A stretch of DNA of 64,000 nt. It comes from Sphingobacteriales bacterium. Its GTDB lineage: Bacteria; Bacteroidota; Bacteroidia; Chitinophagales; JADIYW01. Shown here in pieces: positions 1-11,998 of the stretch. Made by a program: the position numbers and the translations under genes. The notes under the pieces are model-generated. The model saw only the letters and a list, made by a program, of their open reading frames with translations, was not told the origin of the DNA and did no database searches. The DNA lies in contig CANHGL010000001.1 in assembly GCA_947460245.1 (NCBI GenBank), positions 62,001 through 126,000 of the forward strand. The letters are read 5' to 3'. The first letter of the stretch is position 1; every line of letters begins with the position of its first letter.

Positions 1-299
1 ATTTTACCATCTTCCACTTTTCTACCTACGCGTGTAGCGTTTCCGCCCACAGACAATTTAAGGTTTGAAATATGGATAGGTGCTTCTTTTTTAACTATTC
101 CACCCTTTTGCTCTTGAGCATTAGGTTTTGTATGACGTGAAACGATTCGAACTCCTTGCACGATCGCTTTGTTTTCTGCAGGCAAAACTTCTAGAACCAC
201 ACCGCTCTTACCACGATCTTCTCCAGCAATAACGATAACGGTATCCCCTTTCTTTATTTTTAGTTTTGGCGCAAAACGTTTTTCTGTTGGTCTGCTCAT
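1..299 (-). CDS. rplX: 50S ribosomal protein L24, C-terminal end cut off
   Basis: Large-subunit protein L24, an early assembly protein that binds 23S rRNA. Reading down from the ATG at 299 gives a start [19 protein letters not shown], followed by a KOW-type segment ([16 protein letters not shown]) and the basic HTKPN stretch usual for L24. About 99 codons are visible and the frame is open to base 1, so the last residues lie outside the window. The ATG lies one base after the rplN stop, as expected in this operon. Identification is secure; completeness is not. Confidence 0.93.
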
Positions 300-300
300 A

Positions 301-669
301 TTATAATACTTCTGGTGCTAATGAAATAATTTTCATAAAATCCTTATCCCGAAGCTCTCTTGCAACCGGGCCGAAGATACGCGTACCTCTAGGCTCATCC
401 TGATTATTTAACAACACAACTGCATTGTCATCAAAACGAATATATGTACCGTCCTTACGTTTGATTTCTTTCTTTACGCGAACAACTACCGCTTTAGATA
501 CCTGTTTCTTCTTTACGTTTCCACCTGGCATTGCCTCCTTAACAGATACCACAATTTTATCGCCAATAGACGCATATCTTGCTCTGGTACCTTTTAATAC
601 TCTGATGCAAAGTACTTCCTTAGCACCGCTGTTATCAGCTACTTTTAATCTTGATTCTTGTTGTACCAT
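301..669 (-). CDS. rplN: 50S ribosomal protein L14
   Basis: L14 of the large subunit, which sits at the subunit interface. The 122-residue product has the family's usual length and opening ([20 protein letters not shown]) and ends IISLAPEVL. It is separated from rpsQ by one base and from rplX by one base, so it is translated as part of the S10-spc block. Nothing unusual was seen. Confidence 0.98.
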
Positions 670-670
670 G

Positions 671-955
671 TTATTTAGCCTTTTCTACTATTTCTAATAA
701 TCTCCATCTCTTAGTTGCACTCAACGGACGTGTTTCCATGATCTTCACGGTATCGCCGATGTTACATTCATTCTTCTCATCATGTGCATGGAACTTCTTC
801 GTTTTCTTTAAGAACTTGCCATACTTTGGATGTTTTAACTTACGAACAACCGATACTGTGATGGTCTTCTCCATTTTATTAGAAGTTACCACACCAATTC
901 TGGTTTTCCTTAGTTTTCTGTCTGCTGTTAATTCTAACTCCGTTGTCATCTGCAC
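671..955 (-). CDS. rpsQ: 30S ribosomal protein S17
   Basis: S17, a primary 16S rRNA binding protein of the small subunit. The 94-residue protein carries the family core [20 protein letters not shown] and the later [22 protein letters not shown] segment. A short N-terminal extension ([17 protein letters not shown]) precedes the core. It lies four bases after rpmC and one base before rplN. Confidence 0.97.
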
Positions 956-959
956 TGAA

Positions 960-1169
960 TTATGCTTGTTTAGTTAATTGTCTTTTCTTCAATTCTGTCT
1001 GGATACGTGCAATGTGTCTTTTCGTTTCCTTTAATACATTGGTATTTTCCAGTGGTGTAACCGCGTGGTTGAAACGCAATTTAGTGAGTTTCATCTTAGT
1101 TGCTGACAATTCATTGTTCAGCTCTTCTGTACTCCATCCTGCTATTTCGCTATATACTATTGTTCCCAT
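960..1169 (-). CDS. rpmC: 50S ribosomal protein L29
   Basis: L29, a small helical protein near the peptide exit tunnel. The 69-residue product has the family pattern of two helices: [21 protein letters not shown] followed by the [17 protein letters not shown] segment. It follows rplP by ten bases and keeps the order rplP-rpmC-rpsQ. Length and context make the call firm. Confidence 0.95.
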
Positions 1170-1179
1170 TAGTTTTATT

Positions 1180-1605
1180 TTAAATCGTTGCGTCGTAATC
1201 TCTTCTGATAATAAATTTGGTAAGTACCGGTAATTTCTGAGCGGCTAACTTTAAAGACTCTTCAGCAATCTGCTTGGAAACGCCTTCAACCTCGAACAAG
1301 ATACGACCCGGCTTAACTACAGCTACCCAATGATCCAATGCACCTTTTCCTTTACCCATACGAACCTCAGCAGGCTTCTTGGTAATTGGCTTATCCGGGA
1401 AGATATTAATCCAAACCTTTCCTTCACGTTTCATATGTCTGGTTAAAGCAATACGTGCAGCTTCTATCTGACGATCCGTTACCCATGCTTCGTCTAATGA
1501 CTTCAATCCAAATGAACCAAATGATAGCTGCGAACCTCTGTGCGCAACGCCTTTCGACTTCATTTTATGGACTCTTCTAAATTTTACTCTTTTCGGTTGT
1601 AACAT
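1180..1605 (-). CDS. rplP: 50S ribosomal protein L16
   Basis: L16, placed near the peptidyl-transferase centre and the A-site tRNA elbow. The 141-residue protein begins [19 protein letters not shown] and contains the conserved [23 protein letters not shown] signature plus [17 protein letters not shown]. Its stop lies just upstream of rpmC, and it starts 23 bases after rpsC. Ordinary family member. Confidence 0.98.
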
Positions 1606-1628
1606 GACACCTTAATTATACTTGTTTA

Positions 1629-2426
1629 TTATTTTCTTTTAGTACCTCTAGCTTCAGTTCTTTCGCCTCTTGGTTTTCCCGCTCCTCCGCGTTTGTCACC
1701 TGGTCCACCACCTCTTCTGTCATCTCTTCTATCTCCGCGTCTTTCCTGTCCTCCCTTCTTGCTAGCTTCATCCATACCAATATTTGGAGATAAATCGCGT
1801 TTTGTGAATACTTCACCTTTACAGATCCATACCTTAACACCTATCTTACCGTAAATAGTTTCTGCTTCCTTCCAAGCGTAATCAATATCTGCACGGAAAG
1901 TATGCAATGGTGTACGTCCTTCTTTGTACTCCTCGCTTCGTGCCATTTCCGCTCCACCTAGACGACCTGAACATTTAATTTTAATCCCTTCAACTCCCAT
2001 ACGCATTGCTGATGCAATAGCCATCTTCACTGCACGTCTGAAATTCACACGCGCTTCCAATTGCTTACATACAGTCTCTCCTACTATAGCGGCATCTATT
2101 TCTGGTCTTCTAATTTCCACGATATTGATCTGAACATCTTTCTTAGTAAGCTTTTTTATTTCTTCCTTGATTCGATCTACTTCGTTTCCACCTTTACCTA
2201 TAATAATACCAGGGCGAGAAGTATTAATGGAGATAGTAATTCTATTTAGTGTTCTTTCGATAATTATCTTAGAGATACCACCTTTTTGAATACGTGCGTT
2301 CAGATATTTTCTGATCTTCTGATCTTCAATCAGTTTATCACTAAAATCTCTTCCGCCATACCAATTAGAATCCCATCCTCTGATGATTCCTAATCTGTTT
2401 ACTATCGGGTTAGCCTTTTGTCCCAT
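1629..2426 (-). CDS. rpsC: 30S ribosomal protein S3 with long Arg/Gly-rich tail
   Basis: S3, part of the mRNA entry tunnel of the small subunit. The KH domain shows [13 protein letters not shown] with the GKGG loop at residues 77-80, and the S3 C-terminal domain follows ([14 protein letters not shown], about residues 152-165). At 265 residues it is longer than the roughly 230 of Escherichia coli S3. The extra part, residues 220-265, is a low-complexity basic tail rich in Arg, Gly, Asp and Lys ([15 protein letters not shown] and onward), probably disordered and RNA-contacting. It lies between rplV and rplP. Confidence 0.97.
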
Positions 2427-2440
2427 TAATTATTTTTTAT

Positions 2441-2875
2441 TTAGTTTTCGTTATTTTCTTCTACTACTGTTTCTGCGTTAGCCACATTGCGACTTGCCAA
2501 TTGCACGGTAATGTGATTAGAACGCTTACGTATTCTATATGCTCTTCCTTGAGGAGCAGGCTGGAAACGTTTTAACATTCTTCCGCTGTCAATCGTAATT
2601 TGTTTGATAAACAACTCACTGTCTTCAGCTTTTGTATTAAATTTTTCTTCCCAGTTAGCTACCGCAGAACGAACCAATTTTTCTAATGTCTTAGAGGCAT
2701 GCTTTGTAGAAAATGTAAGTATATTCAATGCATCGAATACATCTTTCTCTCTAATTACGTCAGCCAATAATCTCATTTTACGAGGCGATGTAGGAACACC
2801 TGTATTCTTAACCTCACAAATAGTTTTCCTTGCTTCCTTACGCTTTTCAGCTACCAATCTTTTTCTTGCACCCAT
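2441..2875 (-). CDS. rplV: 50S ribosomal protein L22
   Basis: L22, whose long beta-hairpin lines the nascent-peptide tunnel. The 144-residue product contains the family core [18 protein letters not shown], the helical [21 protein letters not shown] stretch and the loop region [21 protein letters not shown] 20-residue basic N-terminus and an acidic C-terminal tail ([10 protein letters not shown]) extend the core. It lies eight bases after rpsS. Confidence 0.97.
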
Positions 2876-2883
2876 CGTTAATA

Positions 2884-3150
2884 TTATTTTCTGTTTCCTG
2901 AATGTCCTTTAAATTGTCTGGTAGGAGAAAATTCACCCAATTTATGTCCTACCATATTTTCTGTTACATATACCGGAATAAATTTATTTCCGTTGTGTAC
3001 TGCAAATGTATGTCCTACAAATTCCGGCGTAATCATAGAGGCTCTAGACCAAGTCTTGATTACCGTTTTTTTGCTGGAGGCGTTCATAGCATCTACCTTT
3101 GCTTGCAAATGGTAGGCTATATAAGGTCCCTTTTTTAAACTTCTTGCCAT
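2884..3150 (-). CDS. rpsS: 30S ribosomal protein S19
   Basis: S19 of the small-subunit head, which touches the ribosomal A-site finger. The 88-residue protein starts [16 protein letters not shown] and carries the conserved [18 protein letters not shown] and [18 protein letters not shown] motifs. It sits between rplB and rplV with short gaps. Ordinary. Confidence 0.98.
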
Positions 3151-3162
3151 TCTCTTATCCTA

Positions 3163-3987
3163 TTATTTTGATTTCCTTGAGATAATAAATTTATTGGATG
3201 CCTTCGTCTTGTTTCTTGTCTTCAAGCCCTTAGAAGGAATACCTTTTCTTGAACGTGGATGACCACCTGAAGCTCTACCTTCACCACCACCCATCGGGTG
3301 ATCTACAGGGTTCATCGCTACAGGACGCGTACGAGGCCTTCTGCCTTTCCAACGGGATGCACCCGCCTTTCCAGCAACTATCAAGTTGTGATCTGAGTTA
3401 GAAACAGTACCGATGGTTGCTAAGCAAGTACCTAACACCATTCTAGCTTCTCCTGAAGGCAATTTAATTGCCACATATTTTCCATCCTTACCAGTTAACT
3501 GAGCAAATGTTCCTGCACTTCTACAGATAGTTGCTCCTTTACCCGGTTGTAATTCAATATTATGAATCACAGAACCTAAAGGCATATTAGCAATAGGAAG
3601 TGTGTTTCCTACTTCAGGAGCTACAGCTTTTCCAGATACTATTTCCTGACCAACCTTCAAGCCTTCCGGAGAAATGATATAACGTTTCTCACCATCCTTG
3701 TATACCACTAATGCGATAAATGCAGAACGGTTTGGATCGTACTCAATAGTCTTTACGGTTGCAGGGATATCAAATTTATTTCGTTTAAAGTCGATGATAC
3801 GATATTGTCTTTTATGACCACCACCGATGTAACGCATCGTCATTTCACCCTTTTGGTTACGACCACCTGATCTCTTATTGGGAACTACCAATGATTTTTC
3901 AGGCTCTCTTGTTGTAACTTCAGCATACGAATTTGTTATTCTGTATCTCAAACTCGGCGTTATCGGACTGTATTTTTTAGTTGACAT
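3163..3987 (-). CDS. rplB: 50S ribosomal protein L2
   Basis: L2, essential for subunit association and for building the peptidyl-transferase centre. The 274-residue protein shows [20 protein letters not shown] near residue 40 and the highly conserved C-terminal [17 protein letters not shown] segment, which includes the histidine region known from L2 function. Length matches the family. It lies between rplW and rpsS. Confidence 0.98.
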
Positions 3988-4007
3988 TGCTTAAATTTCG
4001 TTGTTGC

Positions 4008-4298
4008 TTAAATTTCGTTATAGAAGTCGATGGTTTCTCCAGATGCTATTTTAATAACAGCCTTCTTGTAACTTCCTTTTCTACCGGAGATTACCGCTTT
4101 CTTTGTATTACGGTTCTTCGGTTTTGAAGGCATCACTAAAGTGTTTACCTCTTCTACGTTCACGCCATACATTTTCTCTACCGCTTTCTTAATCTCTACC
4201 TTATTAGCCTTTTTGTCTACCAAAAAAGTATACTTACCTGATTTCTCAGATAGCGCAGACGCTTTTTCGGTGATCAAAGGTTTTTTTAGAACTTCCAT
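4008..4298 (-). CDS. rplW: 50S ribosomal protein L23
   Basis: L23, the docking site for trigger factor and signal recognition particle at the tunnel exit. The 96-residue product begins MEVLKKPLITEKASAL and has the family segment YTFLVDKKANKVEIKKAVE followed by YGVNVEEVNTLVMPSKPKN. It sits between rplD and rplB. Confidence 0.97.
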   Translation of the reverse strand: MEVLKKPLITEKASALSEKSGKYTFLVDKKANKVEIKKAVEKMYGVNVEEVNTLVMPSKPKNRNTKKAVISGRKGSYKKAVIKIASGETIDFYNEI

Positions 4299-4311
4299 GC
4301 TCTTTTATTTT

Positions 4312-4932
4312 TTATGAATTTGCAATTGCTTCCAATGATTTCTCACTAATCAAAATCATGCTGTTGTTCATGATGTCATACGTATTCAAATGTTCTGCCA
4401 ATGCAACACCGGCCCCTTGAATATTTCTGCTAGATAGATAAACACTGTCTACCAATTCCGGCAACACCAGCAATGATTTCTTATTCTCTAATCCAAAAGC
4501 TTTTAAGAAGCTGATATATTGTTTAGTCTTTGCAGAATCGAATGAAAAATCCTCAACAATTTTAATGCTGTTTCCTGCTGCTTTTACAGACAAGGCCGAA
4601 CATTTTGCCAAAGACTTTACTTTCTTGTTTAATTTAAAATCATAAGTACGCGGGCGAGGTCCGAAAATACGTGCACCACCTTTAAACAATGGACTTTTGA
4701 TACTTCCTTTTCTAGAACCACCTGTACCTTTTTGCTTATGTAGCTTTCTTGTAGAACCTGATAACTCAGATTTTTCCAATGTCTTGTGTGTACCACTTCT
4801 TCTGCCAGCTAAATATTGCTTAACAGCAAGGTAAATAACATGCTCATTTGGCTCTATCCCAAAGATAGCATCTGACAACTCCACTGTTCTTCCAGTAGCT
4901 TGTCCGTTTACATTATATACTTCTGCTTTCAT
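4312..4932 (-). CDS. rplD: 50S ribosomal protein L4
   Basis: L4, whose extended loop reaches into the exit tunnel and which regulates its own operon in some bacteria. The 206-residue protein contains the loop signature KLHKQKGTGGSRKGSIKSP followed by FKGGARIFGPRPRTYDFKLN. Length is normal. It lies 13 bases before rplW and 11 bases after rplC. No sequence evidence bears on L4-mediated autoregulation here. Confidence 0.98.
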   Translation of the reverse strand: MKAEVYNVNGQATGRTVELSDAIFGIEPNEHVIYLAVKQYLAGRRSGTHKTLEKSELSGSTRKLHKQKGTGGSRKGSIKSPLFKGGARIFGPRPRTYDFKLNKKVKSLAKCSALSVKAAGNSIKIVEDFSFDSAKTKQYISFLKAFGLENKKSLLVLPELVDSVYLSSRNIQGAGVALAEHLNTYDIMNNSMILISEKSLEAIANS

Positions 4933-4943
4933 CTCTGATATGC

Positions 4944-5564
4944 TTATTTCTTCTTCTCAATAATTATATAAGAACCGTTGTGACCAGGAATTGAACCTCT
5001 TACTATAATAGTATTTTCTTCCGGCAACACTTTTATTACTTTAATATTTAATTCTTTCACTTGGTCTGTTCCCATTCTACCGCCCATCTTCATGCCTTTC
5101 ATTACACGAGCAGGTGTAGAACAAGCTCCCAAAGAACCTGGAGCACGTAAACGGTTATGCTGACCGTGTGTTTGACCACCAACTCCAGCAAATCCATGAC
5201 GCTTTACAACACCTTGAAATCCTTTTCCCTTAGACGTTCCGGTAATGGAAACGCTTTCTCCTTCTTTGATTAATTCTGAAGTTACGACATCACCTACATT
5301 CAGGTCGTCCATTCCTCTGAACTCTACCAATTTAGATTTTGGAGCCGCTCCAGACTTCTCAAAGTGTTTTTTCATCGGCTTGGTGGTATTCTTTTCTTTC
5401 TTATCACCAAAGCCTAATTGTACTGCATCGTAACCATCTTTGTCTTTAGACTTTTTCTGCGTTACTACGCAAGGACCAGCCTGAATAACTGTGCAAGGGA
5501 TAATTATACCACCTTCACCGAATATACTGGTCATACCTACTTTTGTTCCTATTAATCCTGCCAT
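4944..5564 (-). CDS. rplC: 50S ribosomal protein L3
   Basis: L3, an assembly initiator that reaches towards the peptidyl-transferase centre. The 206-residue protein starts [19 protein letters not shown] and carries [20 protein letters not shown] and [19 protein letters not shown], the central extension signature. The glutamine in GGQTHG is at the position methylated by PrmB in Escherichia coli. It lies six bases after rpsJ. Confidence 0.98.
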
Positions 5565-5570
5565 GACTTA

Positions 5571-5876
5571 TTACACTTTAATTTCTACATCAACACCACT
5601 TGGTAATTCTAATTTCATTAGGGCGTCTACAGTCTTTGGTGTTGCACTGTAGATATCCAATAATCTTTTATACGTACACAATTTGAATTGCTCTCTTGCT
5701 ACCTTGTTTACGTGTGGTGATTTCAACACCGTAAAGATTTTCTTGTTGGTAGGCAATGGAATTGGACCTGTTACGACCGCACCCGCACTGCGTACTGTTT
5801 TTACGATTTTCTCAGCAGACTTGTCTACCAAGTTGTGATCGTAAGATTTTAATTTTATTCTAATTTTTTGTGCCAT
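5571..5876 (-). CDS. rpsJ: 30S ribosomal protein S10
   Basis: S10 of the small-subunit head; it also pairs with NusB in antitermination. The 101-residue protein has [20 protein letters not shown] at its start and the conserved [21 protein letters not shown] loop region. It follows fusA after 14 bases, with no tuf gene between, so the classical str and S10 operons are joined here. Confidence 0.98.
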
Positions 5877-5890
5877 GATATATCTATCTA

Positions 5891-7996
5891 TTAGTCTGCT
5901 TTTACTTTAGATTTTGATTTTGATATTACCTGTTCAGTAATATTGTTTGGAGCTTGTGCATAGTGAGAAAATTCCATGATGGAAGTTGCTCTACCTGATG
6001 TTATTGTTCTCAAGTCTGTTACATAACCAAACATTTCAGACAATGGAACTTTAGCCTTGATGACATTTGCATTGTTTTTCATCTCCATGCCTTCCATCAT
6101 ACCACGACGACGATTCAAGTCACCAACTACATCTCCTGTATTTTCTTCTGGTGTAATTACTTCCAATTTCATGATAGGCTCCAATAGAATTGGATTTGCC
6201 TTTTTACATGCCTCACGGAAAGCAAACTTTGCAGCCTGCTCGAAAGAGAATGAATCAGAGTCTACTTGGTGGAAAGATCCATCATGTAAACGCACCTTCA
6301 TGCTTGGCACTTCGTAACCCGCTAAAACACCTGCTTTCATTGCTTCTCTGAAGCCTTTTTCTACAGATGGTATAAACTCACGCGGAATAGAACCACCAAA
6401 AATATCATTGACAAACTCTAATCCTTCCTTACCCTCATCTCCAGGTCCAATTTCTACCTGAATATCTGCAAACTTACCACGACCACCAGACTGTTTAGCA
6501 TATTTTTCTCTATGATCAATTCTTTGTGTAATCGTCTCTTTATAATTTACCTGAGGTGCACCTTGGTTACACTCTACCTTAAATTCACGCAATAAGCGGT
6601 CAACAATAATTTCCAAGTGTAACTCGCCCATTCCACTGATTACCGTCTGAGCAGTATCTTCATCATATCGCACTTTGAATGTTGGATCTTCTTCTGCAAG
6701 CTTACCTAATGCCATACCTAACTTATCGGCATCTTTTTGCGTCTTAGGTTCAATTGCCAAACCGATTACAGGATCTGGGAACTTCATTGACTCCAAGACA
6801 ATAGGTGAATTCTCTGCACACAATGTATCTCCTGTTCTGATATCCTTAAATCCTACAACCGCACCAATATCTCCCGCACCTAATTTATCGATTGGATTCT
6901 GTTTGTTGGCGTGCATCTGAAAAATACGAGATATACGCTCCTTATTCCCAGTTCTTGTATTTAACACATAAGAACCTGCATCCAGCATTCCTGCATAAAC
7001 ACGTGTAAATGCTAAACGTCCAACATAAGGATCTGTTGCAATTTTAAATGCTAATGCCGTGAAAGGCTCATCGTAGCTAGGCTTACGAATAACTTCAACG
7101 CCAGTATCCGGGTGTGTTCCAATGATATTTGGTCTATCTAAAGGACTTGGCATCAACTCCATTACTAAATCTAGCATGGTTTGAACACCCTTATCTTTGA
7201 AAGATGAACCACAAAGCATCGGAACTATTTTCATGTCCAGACATGCTGCACGGAGTGCATCTAAAATTTCTCTTTCCGTAATCGATGTAGGATCTTCAAA
7301 GAATTTCTCCATCAATTTATCATCGTACTCAGATACTGCTTCTAATAATTTTTCTCTCCACTCAGTTGCTTCCTCTACCATATCTGCAGGGATGTCAATA
7401 ACATCATAAGTCATCCCTCTATCTTGTTCGTTCCAAACAATACCACGGAAGTTAATCAAGTCAACTACACCCTTAAATGTATCTTCAGAGCCAATTGGCA
7501 ATTGAAGAGGAACTGCATTAGAACCCAACATTTTCTTAACCTGCTCTACCACCATAAGGAAGTCAGCACCAGCTCTATCCATCTTATTTACGAATCCTAA
7601 ACGAGCAACATTGTAGTTATTCGCTAATCGCCAGTTCGTTTCAGATTGTGGCTCTACACCGTCTACAGCGGAGAATAAGAAAACTAATCCATCTAATACT
7701 CTCAATGAACGATTCACCTCTACGGTGAAATCAACGTGTCCAGGAGTATCTATAATATTCACGTGATAGTCGCCACCTCTATATTTCCAAGCAACAGTAG
7801 TAGCAGCCGAAGTGATGGTAATACCACGCTCTGCCTCTTGCACCATCCAGTCCATAGTAGAAGCACCATCATGCACCTCTCCAATTTTATGGTTTACACC
7901 TGCATAGTAAAGGATACGCTCTGTAGTCGTAGTCTTACCTGCATCGATGTGTGCTGCAATACCAATGTTTCTTGTATATTTTAAATCGCGTGCCAT
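5891..7996 (-). CDS. fusA: Translation elongation factor G
   Basis: GTPase that drives translocation of tRNA and mRNA and, with RRF, recycles ribosomes. The 701-residue product has the G1 motif AHIDAGKT at residues 15-22, switch II DTPGH at 83-87 and NKMD at 137-140, followed by domains II to [13 protein letters not shown] and [14 protein letters not shown] mark domain IV. Length is standard for the main EF-G. It lies between rpsG and rpsJ in the str gene order, which supports the housekeeping copy. Confidence 0.98.
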
Positions 7997-8027
7997 TTCG
8001 TGTCTTACTTAATATTGTTTTTTCTGC

Positions 8028-8495
8028 TTAAACTTTGAAATGAGAGAATGCCTTATTAGCCTCTGCCATCTTGTGTGTATCTTCTTTTCTTTTTACTGCT
8101 GCACCTTCACCTTTAGAAGCTGCAAGTAATTCTGCTGCCAACTTATCGCCCATAGATTTCCCGTTTCTCTTACGAGCAAACTGAATCAACCAACGAATGG
8201 TCATAAATATCTTTCTATCTTCACGGATAGGGGTTGGAATCTGGAAAGTAGCACCACCAATTCTACGGCTCTTTACTTCTACCGCCGGCTGCGCATTTTC
8301 CATTGCTTTTCTCCAGATATCGTATCCTTCTTCGTTAGTAGATTTCTTGATACGCTCCATAGCTTCGTAAAATGAAGTATAGGCAGTGCTTTTCTTACCG
8401 CCAATCATTAAGTTGTTTACAAAGCGAGTAATCAAAGGATCACCGTAAACCGGATCTGGTGCTAGATATCTTTTCTTTGCTTTTTGCTTTCTCAT
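8028..8495 (-). CDS. rpsG: 30S ribosomal protein S7
   Basis: S7, the primary assembly protein of the small-subunit head. The 155-residue protein begins MRKQKAKKRYLAPDPVYGDP and contains the conserved NLMIGGKKSTAY and KSRRIGGATFQIPTPIREDR segments. It lies 41 bases after rpsL, a small gap that could hold a regulatory site of the kind S7 uses in Escherichia coli, although I see no clear structure in it. Confidence 0.98.
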   Translation of the reverse strand: MRKQKAKKRYLAPDPVYGDPLITRFVNNLMIGGKKSTAYTSFYEAMERIKKSTNEEGYDIWRKAMENAQPAVEVKSRRIGGATFQIPTPIREDRKIFMTIRWLIQFARKRNGKSMGDKLAAELLAASKGEGAAVKRKEDTHKMAEANKAFSHFKV

Positions 8496-8536
8496 TGTTA
8501 TTTATTTTGGATAGATGCTTTTAGGCATCTGCACAA

Positions 8537-8944
8537 TTATTTTTTACCTTTTCCTGCCGGTGCAGCTGCGCCAGCTTTTGCTTTCTTAGTTCCGTATTTT
8601 GAACGGCTTTTTTGCCTGTTATTCACCCCTGCTGTATCCAGTGCACCACGAACGATATGGTAACGTACACCCGGTAAATCTTTAACACGACCACCACGAA
8701 TCATTACGATAGAGTGCTCCTGAAGATTATGACCTTCCCCTGGAATGTAAGCAATTACCTCAAATTTGTTGGTTAAACGCACCTTTGCCACTTTACGCAA
8801 AGCCGAATTCGGTTTTTTAGGAGTTGTAGTATACACACGTGTACACACTCCTCTGCGTTGTGGACAGGAGTCTAAGGCCCTTGATTTTGAAGACCAGCTC
8901 AGCTCCTGTCTTCCTTTTCTTACTAACTGTTGAATTGTAGGCAT
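8537..8944 (-). CDS. rpsL: 30S ribosomal protein S12
   Basis: S12, part of the decoding centre. The 135-residue protein has [11 protein letters not shown] with lysines at residues 43 and 44 and [11 protein letters not shown] with lysine 88. These are the residues changed in classical streptomycin-resistant mutants, and here they are the sensitive form. The C-terminal tail ([16 protein letters not shown]) is Ala/Lys-rich. It is the first gene of the operon and follows a structured leader of about 160 nt. Confidence 0.98.
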
Positions 8945-9104
8945 TCTTTACTCTTTAATTTTTTTTGAACTGCTGTAGCAAGTTAGTATGTAAGAGTACC
9001 AAGTGAATGAGCCCGAAAGGGCTTATTTTTTGTAGTCTTACCTTCCCTGTGAAGGCAGTAACTACAGAAAGAAGCTTGAAAAAATCATAACTTCTCCTCT
9101 GAAG
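8945..9104 (-). promoter_or_regulatory. Structured leader RNA of the ribosomal operon (candidate)
   Basis: Untranslated stretch between the proposed transcription start and rpsL. It contains two clear inverted repeats. At 9031-9066 an outer 6-bp stem (TGTAGT at 9031-9036 with ACTACA at 9061-9066) encloses an inner 5-bp stem (CCTTC at 9041-9045 with GAAGG at 9051-9055). At 9008-9025 GCCC/GGGC arms enclose a GAAA loop (plus-strand reading). Such a leader could bind a ribosomal protein for feedback control; that is inference. I do not recognise it as a named RNA family. Confidence 0.45.
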
Positions 9105-9110
9105 TGGGCG

Positions 9111-9118
9111 CAAATATA
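9111..9118 (-). promoter_or_regulatory. -7 promoter box of the ribosomal operon
   Basis: The minus strand reads TATATTTG, a full match to the Bacteroidota -7 consensus TAnnTTTG. Transcription would begin about 9107-9104, leaving a leader of about 160 nt before rpsL. A TTG on the minus strand at 9133-9131 is only 12 bases upstream of the box, shorter than the usual 18-20, so the -33 element is uncertain. Confidence 0.6.
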
Positions 9119-9507
9119 GAAATTAATTCCCAATTGTGGAAAATTATTGCATGTTAATTTGGGATTAAAAATTAATTAAGTGGTAGAATGGCCTGAAAAA
9201 CGCACCTTATTCCATTTCAATAAATTGATAATCAACAAAATACAAATATTAATGAAGAGAAATGTGCTTCTTAATTATTTTATAAGCGATGAATAATTCT
9301 CGCTTCAACGACTTAAAAGAATTAAAATACTTACCGTTGGCTGAATTTTAGATAATTGAGGCCACAAATTACTAATCATTTGACTCAGTATTAAATAATA
9401 CAAACAAAGTGTCTGTCGGCTGTTTAAACAAGCTATTTGTTATCAATATCTTAAGGTAATCCGTTTTCAAGCGGGGCAGCAAACTAAATACTAATTTTAC
9501 AGCGTTA
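9119..9507. other. AT-rich intergenic region without a gene
   Basis: About 390 bases between the divergent ribosomal operon and the DUF5686 gene. I see no open frame of credible length, no tRNA-like T-loop motif, and no repeat. Its ends hold the two outward promoters. Confidence 0.6.
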
Positions 9508-9517: not shown

Positions 9518-11998
9518 GTGCAAAAAAGCATTAGCCTCCTATTACTTTGCTGTGTTTCCTGCCTCTCCTTCAGTCAATACGATTTGAAGGGGGTGGTAAT
9601 TGATGCAAGAACTAAAGAACCATTGCCTTATGTAAATTATACGGTTAGTTCAGGCATAGGGGGCACCACAGACGACAGCGGGCGCTTTGCCTTCTCAGTA
9701 AATACAAAAACAGACTCTATTATTTTCTCCTATCTAGGCTACAGAGATATGGTACTGAAGAAGCGTTTTTTTAGAAGAGATTCTATAATTCTCAGAATGC
9801 ATCTGGAAAGTTATATGCTGGAAGAGTTTACCATCAAGGCAAAACGAAATAAGATACCAAAAGACACAGTAGCTATCAGAATTTTCAGAAATGTAGTAAA
9901 ACACAAAGATGAAAATAAGCCGAGAGCATATAACTCCTATCAATATGAAGAATATCAGAAAACTGTTGCATCGCTTTATAATATAAGTCCCAAGATTAGT
10001 TCACGCAAAATCTTAAAACCGTTTCGTTTCATACTGGAGAACCAGGATAGCACTAGTGAGGGAAAACGTTTCATACCGCTTATCCTGAAGGAAACACTGA
10101 CAGATATTTATTTTAATAAGGATCCTAAAAAAAACAAAGAAGTAATAAAAGCCAGTAAGGTATCCGGTATTGAGCAATTGCGTTTCTCTGAATTACTGGA
10201 TGTAGCATTTGATGACCTCGAAGTTTACGACAACCAAACTTTAGTCAGCGGTAAAACATTTTTACTACCCTTTGCCAACGGAGGATTATCGCTCTATAAT
10301 TATTACTTAATAGACAGTACAAAAGGTGCCGATAGCGCCTGGTTATACAACCTGGCATTTGTACCAAAAAGCAAGTCAGACCTCTTATTTAATGGAAGCG
10401 CCACTATCCACGATTCTTCATTCGCTATAACAAAAATTGATTTAAGTATAGACAACCGCTCTAACCTAAATTTTGTAAATGGGTTCTCCGTAAAGCAAAG
10501 TTTTGAAAACACCGGAAAGGGATGGTTTAAAAATGAAGAAACGCGTACTACCAATATCGCATTCACGAAGACTAAACGCGCAAAGAGCGTTCGCCTCGCA
10601 AGATATGTAGACAGGAAAAATATCTTAGTGGATCAGCCTATTGCTGATAGTATCCTTAAGCAAGACAATAAAATTCTTTTAAAAAATTATAGAAAACAAA
10701 GCGATAGTTTCTGGATTACAAACAGGCATGATACACTATCTGTACAGGAAGAAAAGGTATACTATTTAATTGATAGTCTGAAGCAAACTAAATTTTATAA
10801 AGCAGTTTCCACTATCGGCGGAATCTTTGCAAGTGGCTATTACAAAACAAAAACGCTGGACTACGGAAATCTTTATCAGATGGTAAGCTGGAATGACAAA
10901 GAAGGAGTACGCTTGCGTCTGAATCTACAAAGCAACTGGCGCATGAGCCAATGGGTATATTTTAAAGTCTTCGGAGCATATGGGATAAAAGATAAACGAT
11001 TTAAGTATGGCGCAGAATTAGGCTCTCATCTCCCCGATAAACATCAGCGAGAACATAATATAAATATTTCCTACCGGGATGACTACCAGCGGTTCGCTAT
11101 CAATGGGAACAAGATGGATTTTGACTTTATTTATTCCTCCTTATTCAGAAATAGGAATATTGCTGATTTAGTATACCTCAAAGATGTAAAGCTGAATTAT
11201 TTCAGAGAGTGGATGACCAATCTCTCTACAGATATCTCTTTCGATTACAGAATCTATAAAACCTTACCTGGTAAAATAGAATTTATAAAAACTACTACCA
11301 ATCTGGATGGAGCGTTCGATACTGCGCGCATTAGTAAATTTCAAGTCTTTTCTCCAAATTTTAATGTCACATATACCCCTGGGGCGAAGTTCTTGCAAAC
11401 CTCAAGAAAGAAACAGTTTTTAAAAGGTAAGTTTCCTCGTATCACCTTTAATTACTCGTTTAGCGTAAGAGGCATAACCAGTGATTTTAGTTTTAATAAA
11501 ATTGATCTATTAATAGAAGAAAGACTGCCTTCTCCGATCGGCCATACACTCTTTCAGCTTTCTGCCACCAAGTTCTTTGGCACCATTCCATATCCACTAT
11601 TAACCATACACCCAGGGAACCAAGCATTCTTATATGATTTTGAAAGATTTACCAATATGCGGGAAGGAGAATTTATCGCCGACCAACAGATAGCATTATA
11701 TATAGAGCATCATTTTGACGGATTCTTCTTTAATAAGATTCCTTTATGGAGAAAATTAGGGCTACGCGAGGTATTTGTCACTAAAATGGCCTTGAGTTCT
11801 CTCAACAAAGATAAAGTCTCTTTTGTTGACCTTCCGGCAGGACTGAATGGACTTAATGGCTTCTATGCAGAAGTAGGATTTGGCATTGAGAATATCCTTA
11901 AAATTATACGCGTTGATTTCAGTTGGCGATTGACTCAATTGGACAGGCCAGAGGTAAATAAATTCAGATGGTCTCTAAGTTTCTCCCCTGGATTTTAA
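9518..11998 (+). CDS. DUF5686-type outer-membrane protein with carboxypeptidase-regulatory-like domain
   Basis: A large predicted outer-membrane protein of 826 residues. A GTG start gives a signal peptide (KSISLLLLCCVSCLSFSQ). Residues of about 20-100 form a carboxypeptidase-regulatory-like beta domain (LKGVVIDARTKEPLPYVNYT, then GTTDDSGRFAFSV), which is common at the front of Bacteroidota outer-membrane proteins. The remainder is rich in alternating aromatic/polar strands and ends in a strand with a terminal Phe (RWSLSFSPGF), typical of a barrel inserted by BamA. The exact job of DUF5686 proteins is not known to me. The gene stands alone, divergent from the ribosomal operon. Confidence 0.75.
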   Translation: MQKSISLLLLCCVSCLSFSQYDLKGVVIDARTKEPLPYVNYTVSSGIGGTTDDSGRFAFSVNTKTDSIIFSYLGYRDMVLKKRFFRRDSIILRMHLESYMLEEFTIKAKRNKIPKDTVAIRIFRNVVKHKDENKPRAYNSYQYEEYQKTVASLYNISPKISSRKILKPFRFILENQDSTSEGKRFIPLILKETLTDIYFNKDPKKNKEVIKASKVSGIEQLRFSELLDVAFDDLEVYDNQTLVSGKTFLLPFANGGLSLYNYYLIDSTKGADSAWLYNLAFVPKSKSDLLFNGSATIHDSSFAITKIDLSIDNRSNLNFVNGFSVKQSFENTGKGWFKNEETRTTNIAFTKTKRAKSVRLARYVDRKNILVDQPIADSILKQDNKILLKNYRKQSDSFWITNRHDTLSVQEEKVYYLIDSLKQTKFYKAVSTIGGIFASGYYKTKTLDYGNLYQMVSWNDKEGVRLRLNLQSNWRMSQWVYFKVFGAYGIKDKRFKYGAELGSHLPDKHQREHNINISYRDDYQRFAINGNKMDFDFIYSSLFRNRNIADLVYLKDVKLNYFREWMTNLSTDISFDYRIYKTLPGKIEFIKTTTNLDGAFDTARISKFQVFSPNFNVTYTPGAKFLQTSRKKQFLKGKFPRITFNYSFSVRGITSDFSFNKIDLLIEERLPSPIGHTLFQLSATKFFGTIPYPLLTIHPGNQAFLYDFERFTNMREGEFIADQQIALYIEHHFDGFFFNKIPLWRKLGLREVFVTKMALSSLNKDKVSFVDLPAGLNGLNGFYAEVGFGIENILKIIRVDFSWRLTQLDRPEVNKFRWSLSFSPGF

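Follow-up and report, generated by a model that had tools for sequence, protein, structure and literature searches.

RESULTS

The ribosomal gene cluster and its leader

The window, by which we mean the whole stretch of 64,000 nucleotides analysed here, belongs to an assembly of 85 contigs (2.2 Mb) and holds on its minus strand the first part of a long ribosomal gene cluster headed by rpsL (Table 1). The closest matches to its rpsL come from records such as Hydrotalea and Chitinophaga, in agreement with an assignment to Bacteroidota. Past base 1 of the window, the cluster continues through rplX, rplE, rpsN and rpsH (uS8) to rpoA and rplQ, some of these names having been assigned from translations and gene order. 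From the rpsL start to rpsH, which belongs to the same gene run, the distance is 9.9 kb; the rpsH product is an ordinary uS8 protein that retains the STSKG stretch. Judging from the shared strand and the short gaps, rpsL and rpsH would be co-transcribed over these 9.9 kb. The gap between rpsL and rpsG measures 41 nt (8496-8536). On the other side of rpsL, the divergent neighbour (9518-11998, plus strand) encodes a DUF5686 protein with a CarboxypepD_reg-like domain; the upstream genes differ in the relatives G011 and G012.

The gene rpsL starts at 8944 and is preceded on the minus strand by a leader of about 160 nt, counted from the promoter P1, whose -7 box is of the Bacteroidota type TAnnTTTG. 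In all of the 11 leaders compared (eight from the genus, this one included, and three from a second genus of the same family) the leader sequence starts 3 nt past the P1 box. The available text of PMC9723704 places the -7 box at -12 to -5, so transcription from P1 would start near 9106. The predicted fold of 9106-8930 beats 198 of 200 dinucleotide shuffles (z -2.97), and three hairpins, H1, H2 (9066-9031) and H3 (9023-9010), follow one another along the leader.

An earlier reading of the window, made from the sequence alone (hereafter, the sequence-only reading), had described much of this layout. Its strong -7 box at 9118-9111 is found there as TATATTTG, its estimate of about 160 nt of leader agrees with the rpsL start at 8944 (TIGR00981), its two-tier stem-loop at 9031-9066 is paired in related genomes too, and its GCCC/GGGC hairpin can be given more exactly as AGCCC-TTTC-GGGCT at 9023-9010. 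It was also correct in recognising no named RNA family: Rfam gave no match at gathering score across the window, and the matches in the leader were at chance level only. The 6S-Flavo RNA was considered and discarded, as no match was obtained, a weak negative because the control genomes gave no match either; a small SRP RNA is encoded elsewhere (C9).

Upstream of P1, a nearly conserved inverted repeat, TTTTCCACAATTGGGAA (9127-9143, minus strand), overlaps the -33 region of the promoter. It is found at this place in 8 genomes of the genus, some relatives differing at one or two positions, and conservation extends further upstream of it. The repeat is possibly an operator for some regulator.

Table 1. 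Features of the rpsL leader and of the ribosomal gene cluster (window positions unless another contig or locus is given)
Feature	Position	Strand	Basis or remark
P1 -7 box TATATTTG, Bacteroidota type TAnnTTTG	9111..9118	-	6/6 fixed positions, here and in all 11 leaders
5' segment ACUUCAG, copy of the H2 3' arm ACUACA with one fixed mismatch	9099..9105	-	pairing in 11/11 leaders
H1 hairpin	9061..9105	-	one both-sides change inside the genus; state energies
H2, candidate uS8-binding hairpin (two-tier stem)	9031..9066	-	covariation and descriptor match
S8 core strand U-A-C-U, corresponding to 16S 641-644 (9059 = A642)	9057..9060	-	WACU in 11/11
S8 core strand A-A-G, corresponding to 16S 595-597	9037..9039	-	AAG in 11/11
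H3 hairpin AGCCC-TTTC-GGGCT	9010..9023	-	better than shuffles in 7/11 genomes
Degraded P2	8967..8985	-	by alignment; relatives TACCTTTGCAGTCC or close, here CTACAGCAGTTC (8978-8967)
rpsL (uS12), first gene of the cluster	8537..8944	-	PF00164, TIGR00981
rpsG, fusA, rpsJ ... rplN, start of rplX (from 299)	1..8495	-	some names from translations and order
rpsH (uS8)	G000:C1:60644-61042 = L147:8645-9043	-	NF001109; outside the window
Second S8 core AACU/AAG	within C1:61063-61111 = L147:9064-9112	-	97-nt gap before rpsH

Structure and covariation of hairpin H2

Hairpin H2 is formed by an outer stem (TGTAGT/ACTACA), an internal loop and an inner stem (TGCCTTC/GAAGGTA) that contains one G.U pair, and by itself it folds better than 299 of 300 shuffles. 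Its conservation was evaluated on an alignment (A6) from which 8 antisense-strand matches of 19 had been excluded. Across the 11 sequences all 143 cells of the H2 pairing are paired, and four pairs are altered on both sides. These both-sides changes amount to 9 cells, compared with a shuffled mean of 2.2, and the paired fraction falls to 41-52% in slid controls. The sequence-only reading had proposed a search for covarying base pairs in related genomes and had stated that their absence would refute its proposal: H2 does covary. The independent covariation events are few, because all of them trace back to the divergence of the two genera and to changes within the second one. The helices of H2 vary between the genera; the internal loop stays fixed.

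The internal loop of H2 matches the S8 core of 16S rRNA

In all 11 leaders the internal loop reads WAC-UGC on its 5' side and GUA-AG on its 3' side, that is, a seven-nucleotide loop AAG/NACU flanked by 6-7 inner and 6-8 outer pairs. The available part of PMC4176348 describes the S8 site on helix 21 of 16S rRNA as a helix interrupted by seven conserved nucleotides, with the triples A595-(A596-U644) and (G597-C643)-U641 and the invariant A642. The A matching A642 is present in 11/11 leaders, as well as in the five sites found before rpsH (see below), and the bases for A-(A-U) and G-C are present in 11/11 leaders, so that they could form the corresponding triples. The position equivalent to 641 is A in eight leaders and U in three (this genome and two others). 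For the E. coli spc mRNA, the same source gives the triple A+80-(A+81-U+11), which means that in the spc operator, too, the ACUG strand comes first; K-12 rplE has the expected bases at these positions (AAACUGC and GCAAGU).

The core was searched for with a descriptor made of a helix, NACU/AAG and a second helix, in which settings such as 4/4 or 5/4 give the minimum flanking pairs. In the E. coli 16S record the descriptor finds one place, position 595, which is the S8 site, and on the forward strand of the 16S region of G011 it finds helix 21 only (16S is absent from the assembly under study and was found in one of four relatives). In a 7-kb E. coli S10-spc region the only place with the spc topology is the rplE operator, recovered only when the requirement is relaxed to two outer pairs (4/2); the strict 3/3 descriptor misses it. 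Another likeness to 16S, around AACUGC and located in what we take to be helix 40, was dropped, its structure being different.

Applied to both strands of the window (128 kb), the descriptor finds H2 only, and 60 shuffled windows of 128 kb contained a single place of H2 strength. The sense strand of the 19.1-kb cluster holds two places, one at H2 and one in the gap between rpsN and rpsH, each with six pairs on both sides; 400 shuffles of the cluster gave none with six plus six pairs, and 148 in all at the looser 4/4 setting. Furthermore, when all 4096 cores of this shape were compared within the cluster, AAG/NACU was the only one with two places of this strength, 17 cores having one and 4078 none. 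It could be argued that the S8 likeness is a coincidence and that H2 is a structured RNA with another ligand, as the likeness was spotted after the fact and the core amounts to six fixed bases plus helices. The shuffled windows and the comparison of cores speak against a coincidence, all the more as the two cluster places both fall in non-coding gaps, one of them before rpsH, and we regard this explanation as quite improbable.

A second S8 core before rpsH

The core and the outer helix of the second site are present in all five genomes of the genus in which the gap before rpsH was read, this one included (the count omits G003, G004 and G005, where rpsL is near a contig end). Three of the five sites pass the 4/4 descriptor; in G001 and G007 the inner helix is interrupted by a C.A mismatch. 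Covariation at this site does not rise above the shuffled level. At the 4/4 setting, the cluster under study has places before rpsL and before rpsH only, and none at the rplE start.

In the second genus the gap before rpsH measures 27 nt and the site is absent in all three genomes; AGGAG stands there directly at the rpsH ATG (L155-L157), which is unusual for Bacteroidota. Among 15 stretches from other genomes of the order, six without an S8 gene were left uncounted, and the nine counted have no site in the 130 nt before rpsH; three of these nine have weak descriptor places elsewhere in 5 kb.

The sequence-only reading had suggested that the leader may bind S12, S7 or another ribosomal protein for feedback. 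Ribosomal-protein feedback is supported as the best reading; S12 and S7 are not favoured as the ligand, because the conserved loop is the uS8 core and its second copy lies right before rpsH. An operator for a ribosomal protein other than S8 (e.g., S7, S12, L4 or S10) would have a precedent in the E. coli str operon, regulated by S7 according to PMC10931766, and rpsG is the second gene here. However, the invariant loop is that of S8, the second core precedes rpsH and not rpsG, and the S7 target of E. coli lies between rpsL and rpsG, where only the 41-nt gap is available here, which makes such an operator highly improbable.

Distribution of the element among relatives

The element is located directly before rpsL in 8/8 genomes of the genus, this one included, and in 3/3 genomes examined of the second genus. 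A covariance model obtained from the eight genus sequences detected two divergent copies in the second genus (E 7.8e-6 and 2.4e-5), and the third genome of that genus (G010), missed by the order-wide search, scored 27.5 bits with the same model. In total, the element was found in 11 of 13 family genomes (two genera), with a model built from the same 11. In G008, which belongs to a third genus of the family, the region upstream of rpsL has no S8 core, and the contig ends after rpsL; in G009 no rpsL was found. The G008 locus (L133) presents a P1-like promoter and a hairpin pairing GGAGGAA with UUUUCUU upstream of rpsL.

On a wider scale, the exact H2 pattern occurs in 8 of 396 order genomes, all in one genus. 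The covariance model R1 gave E <=0.001 in 10 of 149 order genomes, all within the family, and E between 0.03 and 0.54 in 7 further ones; its negatives are soft, because the R1 search missed G010, which carries the element. Among 395 genomes of the phylum, model R2 (11 sequences) retrieved only the genome under study at 0.001, with two others at 0.047 and 0.094. A match of R2 in contig 10 of G011 (E 4.9e-4, locus L116), presumably at the end of panC, was taken as chance. The 5/4 descriptor was negative in all 80 rpsL upstream regions of named genomes (mostly Bacteroidota, with some other phyla) and positive in 3 of 26 order loci, all three from the second genus, the 23 loci without a place including G008.

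Two competing folds at the 5' end of the leader

The first nucleotides of the leader can pair in a different way. In the long form of H1, 9105-9099 pairs with 9067-9061 (CUGUAGU), and the outer stem of H2 is excluded. The 5' end repeats one arm of H2 and pairs with the same strand, so that long H1 and H2 are mutually exclusive. In all 11 leaders six of the seven positions between the 5' segment and CUGUAGU pair; the central one pairs in none. Two of these pairs switch on both sides with the genus, and the three segments co-vary in the second genus (GCUUAAG, GCUAAA and CUUUAGC in G011). When the two folds are forced, their energies differ by 0.1 to 2.7 kcal/mol, H2 being the lower in 11/11 leaders. 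Such near-equal predicted energies would suit a switch. An additional pairing, between the 3' half of H2 and GGUANUCUUAC past H3, was rejected: it is the best duplex there in only three of eight same-genus leaders tested, in which 13, 20 and 15 of 300 shuffles were as good.

Inside H1, an 8-codon ORF (MIFSSFFL; 9088-9062, minus strand) follows the sequence AGGAG. A leader-peptide attenuator could be imagined from this ORF with its Shine-Dalgarno-like AGGAG in the window, yet the other 10 leaders have no similar ATG ORF at the matching place (a TTG start would give LNNFFL in G006 and LNDFFL in G004), and the Shine-Dalgarno-like sequence is absent in the second genus. This explanation is scarcely credible.

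Hairpin H3 and a second promoter

In the seven genomes where H3 exceeds the shuffles, at most 9 of 300 were as good; it fails in G006, G010, G011 and G012. Here no U run follows it. In G010-G012, H3 is an AT hairpin with a U-rich run after it, and it is possibly a terminator in some relatives. As a clear terminator H3 was rejected, since the sense-strand terminator scan is negative here and, in four of the 11 genomes, the hairpin does not exceed the shuffles. On the plus strand (9005-9028), H3 and a T run score as an intrinsic terminator; no plus-strand gene was seen to end there. The 3' arm of H3 and the next bases spell another TAnnTTTG box (TATGTTTG or TATATTTG) in G004, G007, G001, G005 and G002, thus part of the conservation of H3 may be that of promoter sequence.

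Between H3 and rpsL, a second -7 box (P2), TACCTTTG or close to it, is present in 10 of 11 leaders, in G004 with one mismatch, and its location resembles that of the rpsL promoter boxes of several other genomes. In the genome under study its best match has 4/6 fixed positions (TAACTTGC, 8985-8978), compared with 5 or 6/6 in the other ten leaders. On the minus strand, at the place where P2 was lost, TAACTTGC fits a TAnnTTGY box, a promoter class (SM5) described for Flavobacterium psychrophilum in the available text of PMC9723704; the fit is probably due to chance. With the P2 box lost and H3 devoid of a U run, P1 is the only good promoter seen for rpsL here. For the sequence-only reading, a transcription start downstream of the stems would have refuted its proposal: a -7 box suited to such a start is found in 10 of 11 leaders, and it is gone in the one that had been read.

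The same promoter raises the possibility that the transcript from P1 is a separate small RNA of about 100 nt that ends at H3, with rpsL driven by P2 and the S8 hairpin acting in trans, e.g., as an S8 sponge or sensor. The presence of P2 between H3 and rpsL in 10 of 11 leaders would agree with this, as would the U-rich run in G010-G012. Conversely, the element stays with rpsL in 11/11 genomes while the upstream genes differ among the genome under study, G011 and G012; in the genome under study the P2 box was lost, H3 has no U run and P1 is left for rpsL; in four of the 11 genomes H3 lacks significance; and rpsH belongs to the same gene run. On balance, we consider a separate small RNA unlikely.

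DISCUSSION

A candidate S8 operator and its possible mechanism

The leader transcribed from P1 is, in our view, quite probably an autogenous uS8 operator, with H2 as the binding site, for the cluster headed by rpsL. This reading is built on what the sequences show directly: conserved and covarying hairpins, a loop that matches the S8 core, another such core further on, and an rpsH gene located in the same gene run. Several points weigh against it: the promoter found past the stems in 10 of 11 leaders would bypass the operator, the idea of S8 arose after the motif was seen, the covariation of H2 stems from few events, the site is lacking upstream of rpsL in G008 and in 102 other loci at the 5/4 setting, the site before rpsH is imperfect in two genomes and absent from the second genus, and the strict descriptor misses the E. 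coli operator.

Our inference on S8 binding to H2, its effect and the step through which it acts is as follows. S8 in excess of free 16S rRNA would bind H2, trapping this fold against long H1, and the bound protein would lower the expression of the rpsL-headed cluster, rpsH included. The second core before rpsH could add local control in the genus under study. As the most likely output step, we propose that fewer P1 transcripts would read past H3, or that the transcript would become less stable in that region. In Bacteroidota, which naturally lack Shine-Dalgarno sequences according to the available text of PMC6847099, we consider an effect on the transcript near H3 more likely than a direct block of translation about 87 nt away. 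In relatives with P2, the operator would act on the P1 share of the transcripts only, or on a separate short RNA.

In its widest form, the proposal is that one uS8-controlled strand-exchange switch, placed in front of a fused str-S10-spc(-alpha) cluster, sets the output of some 30 genes, the second S8 site before rpsH providing fine control; we put this forward tentatively, at slightly less than an even chance. If it is true, the two folds of near-equal energy would constitute an attenuator that senses a protein, in which respect the leader would differ from the S8 operator of E. coli, which acts on translation. It would also, as far as our literature search shows, extend S8 leaders beyond Gammaproteobacteria for the first time. 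The balancing of ribosomal protein synthesis is poorly known in bacteria outside a few well-studied groups, and H2 is a small RNA that can be tested directly.

Comparison with known systems

The literature search, whose coverage left out most subscription journals, returned no Bacteroidota S8 leader, and no rpsL leader except the SAR11 rpsL motif. As far as found there, the position of the candidate operator and its switch-like fold have not been described before. The rpsL motif of Candidatus Pelagibacter ubique (PMC2704228, in the part available) is likewise a structured leader and, as here, opens a merged str-S10-spc gene series. It is a three-stem junction, unlike H2, and in that part its authors report it from this organism and marine metagenomes only, describe it as unlike the S7, S8 and L4 motifs, and assign no ligand to it. 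The Bacteroidota r-leaders described by Eckert and Weinberg in 2020 (PMC7247131) are lineage-restricted too, and concern L13, S4, S15 and S16; the passages of their Table 1 that were consulted include no S8 leader, and none located before rpsL. Feedback on an operon beginning with rpsL is also exerted through the S7 str operator of E. coli (PMC10931766, available text). That operator is placed between rpsL and rpsG, and both the protein and the site differ from those proposed here.

The closest likeness is to the S8 operator of the E. coli spc operon, at the rplE start, which has the same core and the same strand order (AAACUGC...GCAAGU there, WACUGC...GUAAGR here) and, as here, is followed by the S8 gene in the same gene run. 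The available text of PMC10931766 describes that operator as overlapping the third spc gene and blocking translation. The element described here stands instead ahead of rpsL, with rpsH 9.9 kb further downstream, and belongs to a non-coding leader that can also adopt a rival fold. With 16S helix 21, H2 shares the AAG/NACU loop, including the match to A642, and in the genome under study position 641 is U, as in 16S. The 594-645 pair is U.G both in the 16S of G011 and in H2. The strand order is swapped between the two, and the hairpin loop closes the opposite end of the site. The occurrence in Bacteroidota of the same S8 core both ahead of the merged cluster and before the S8 gene suggests that rRNA mimicry has been reused repeatedly.
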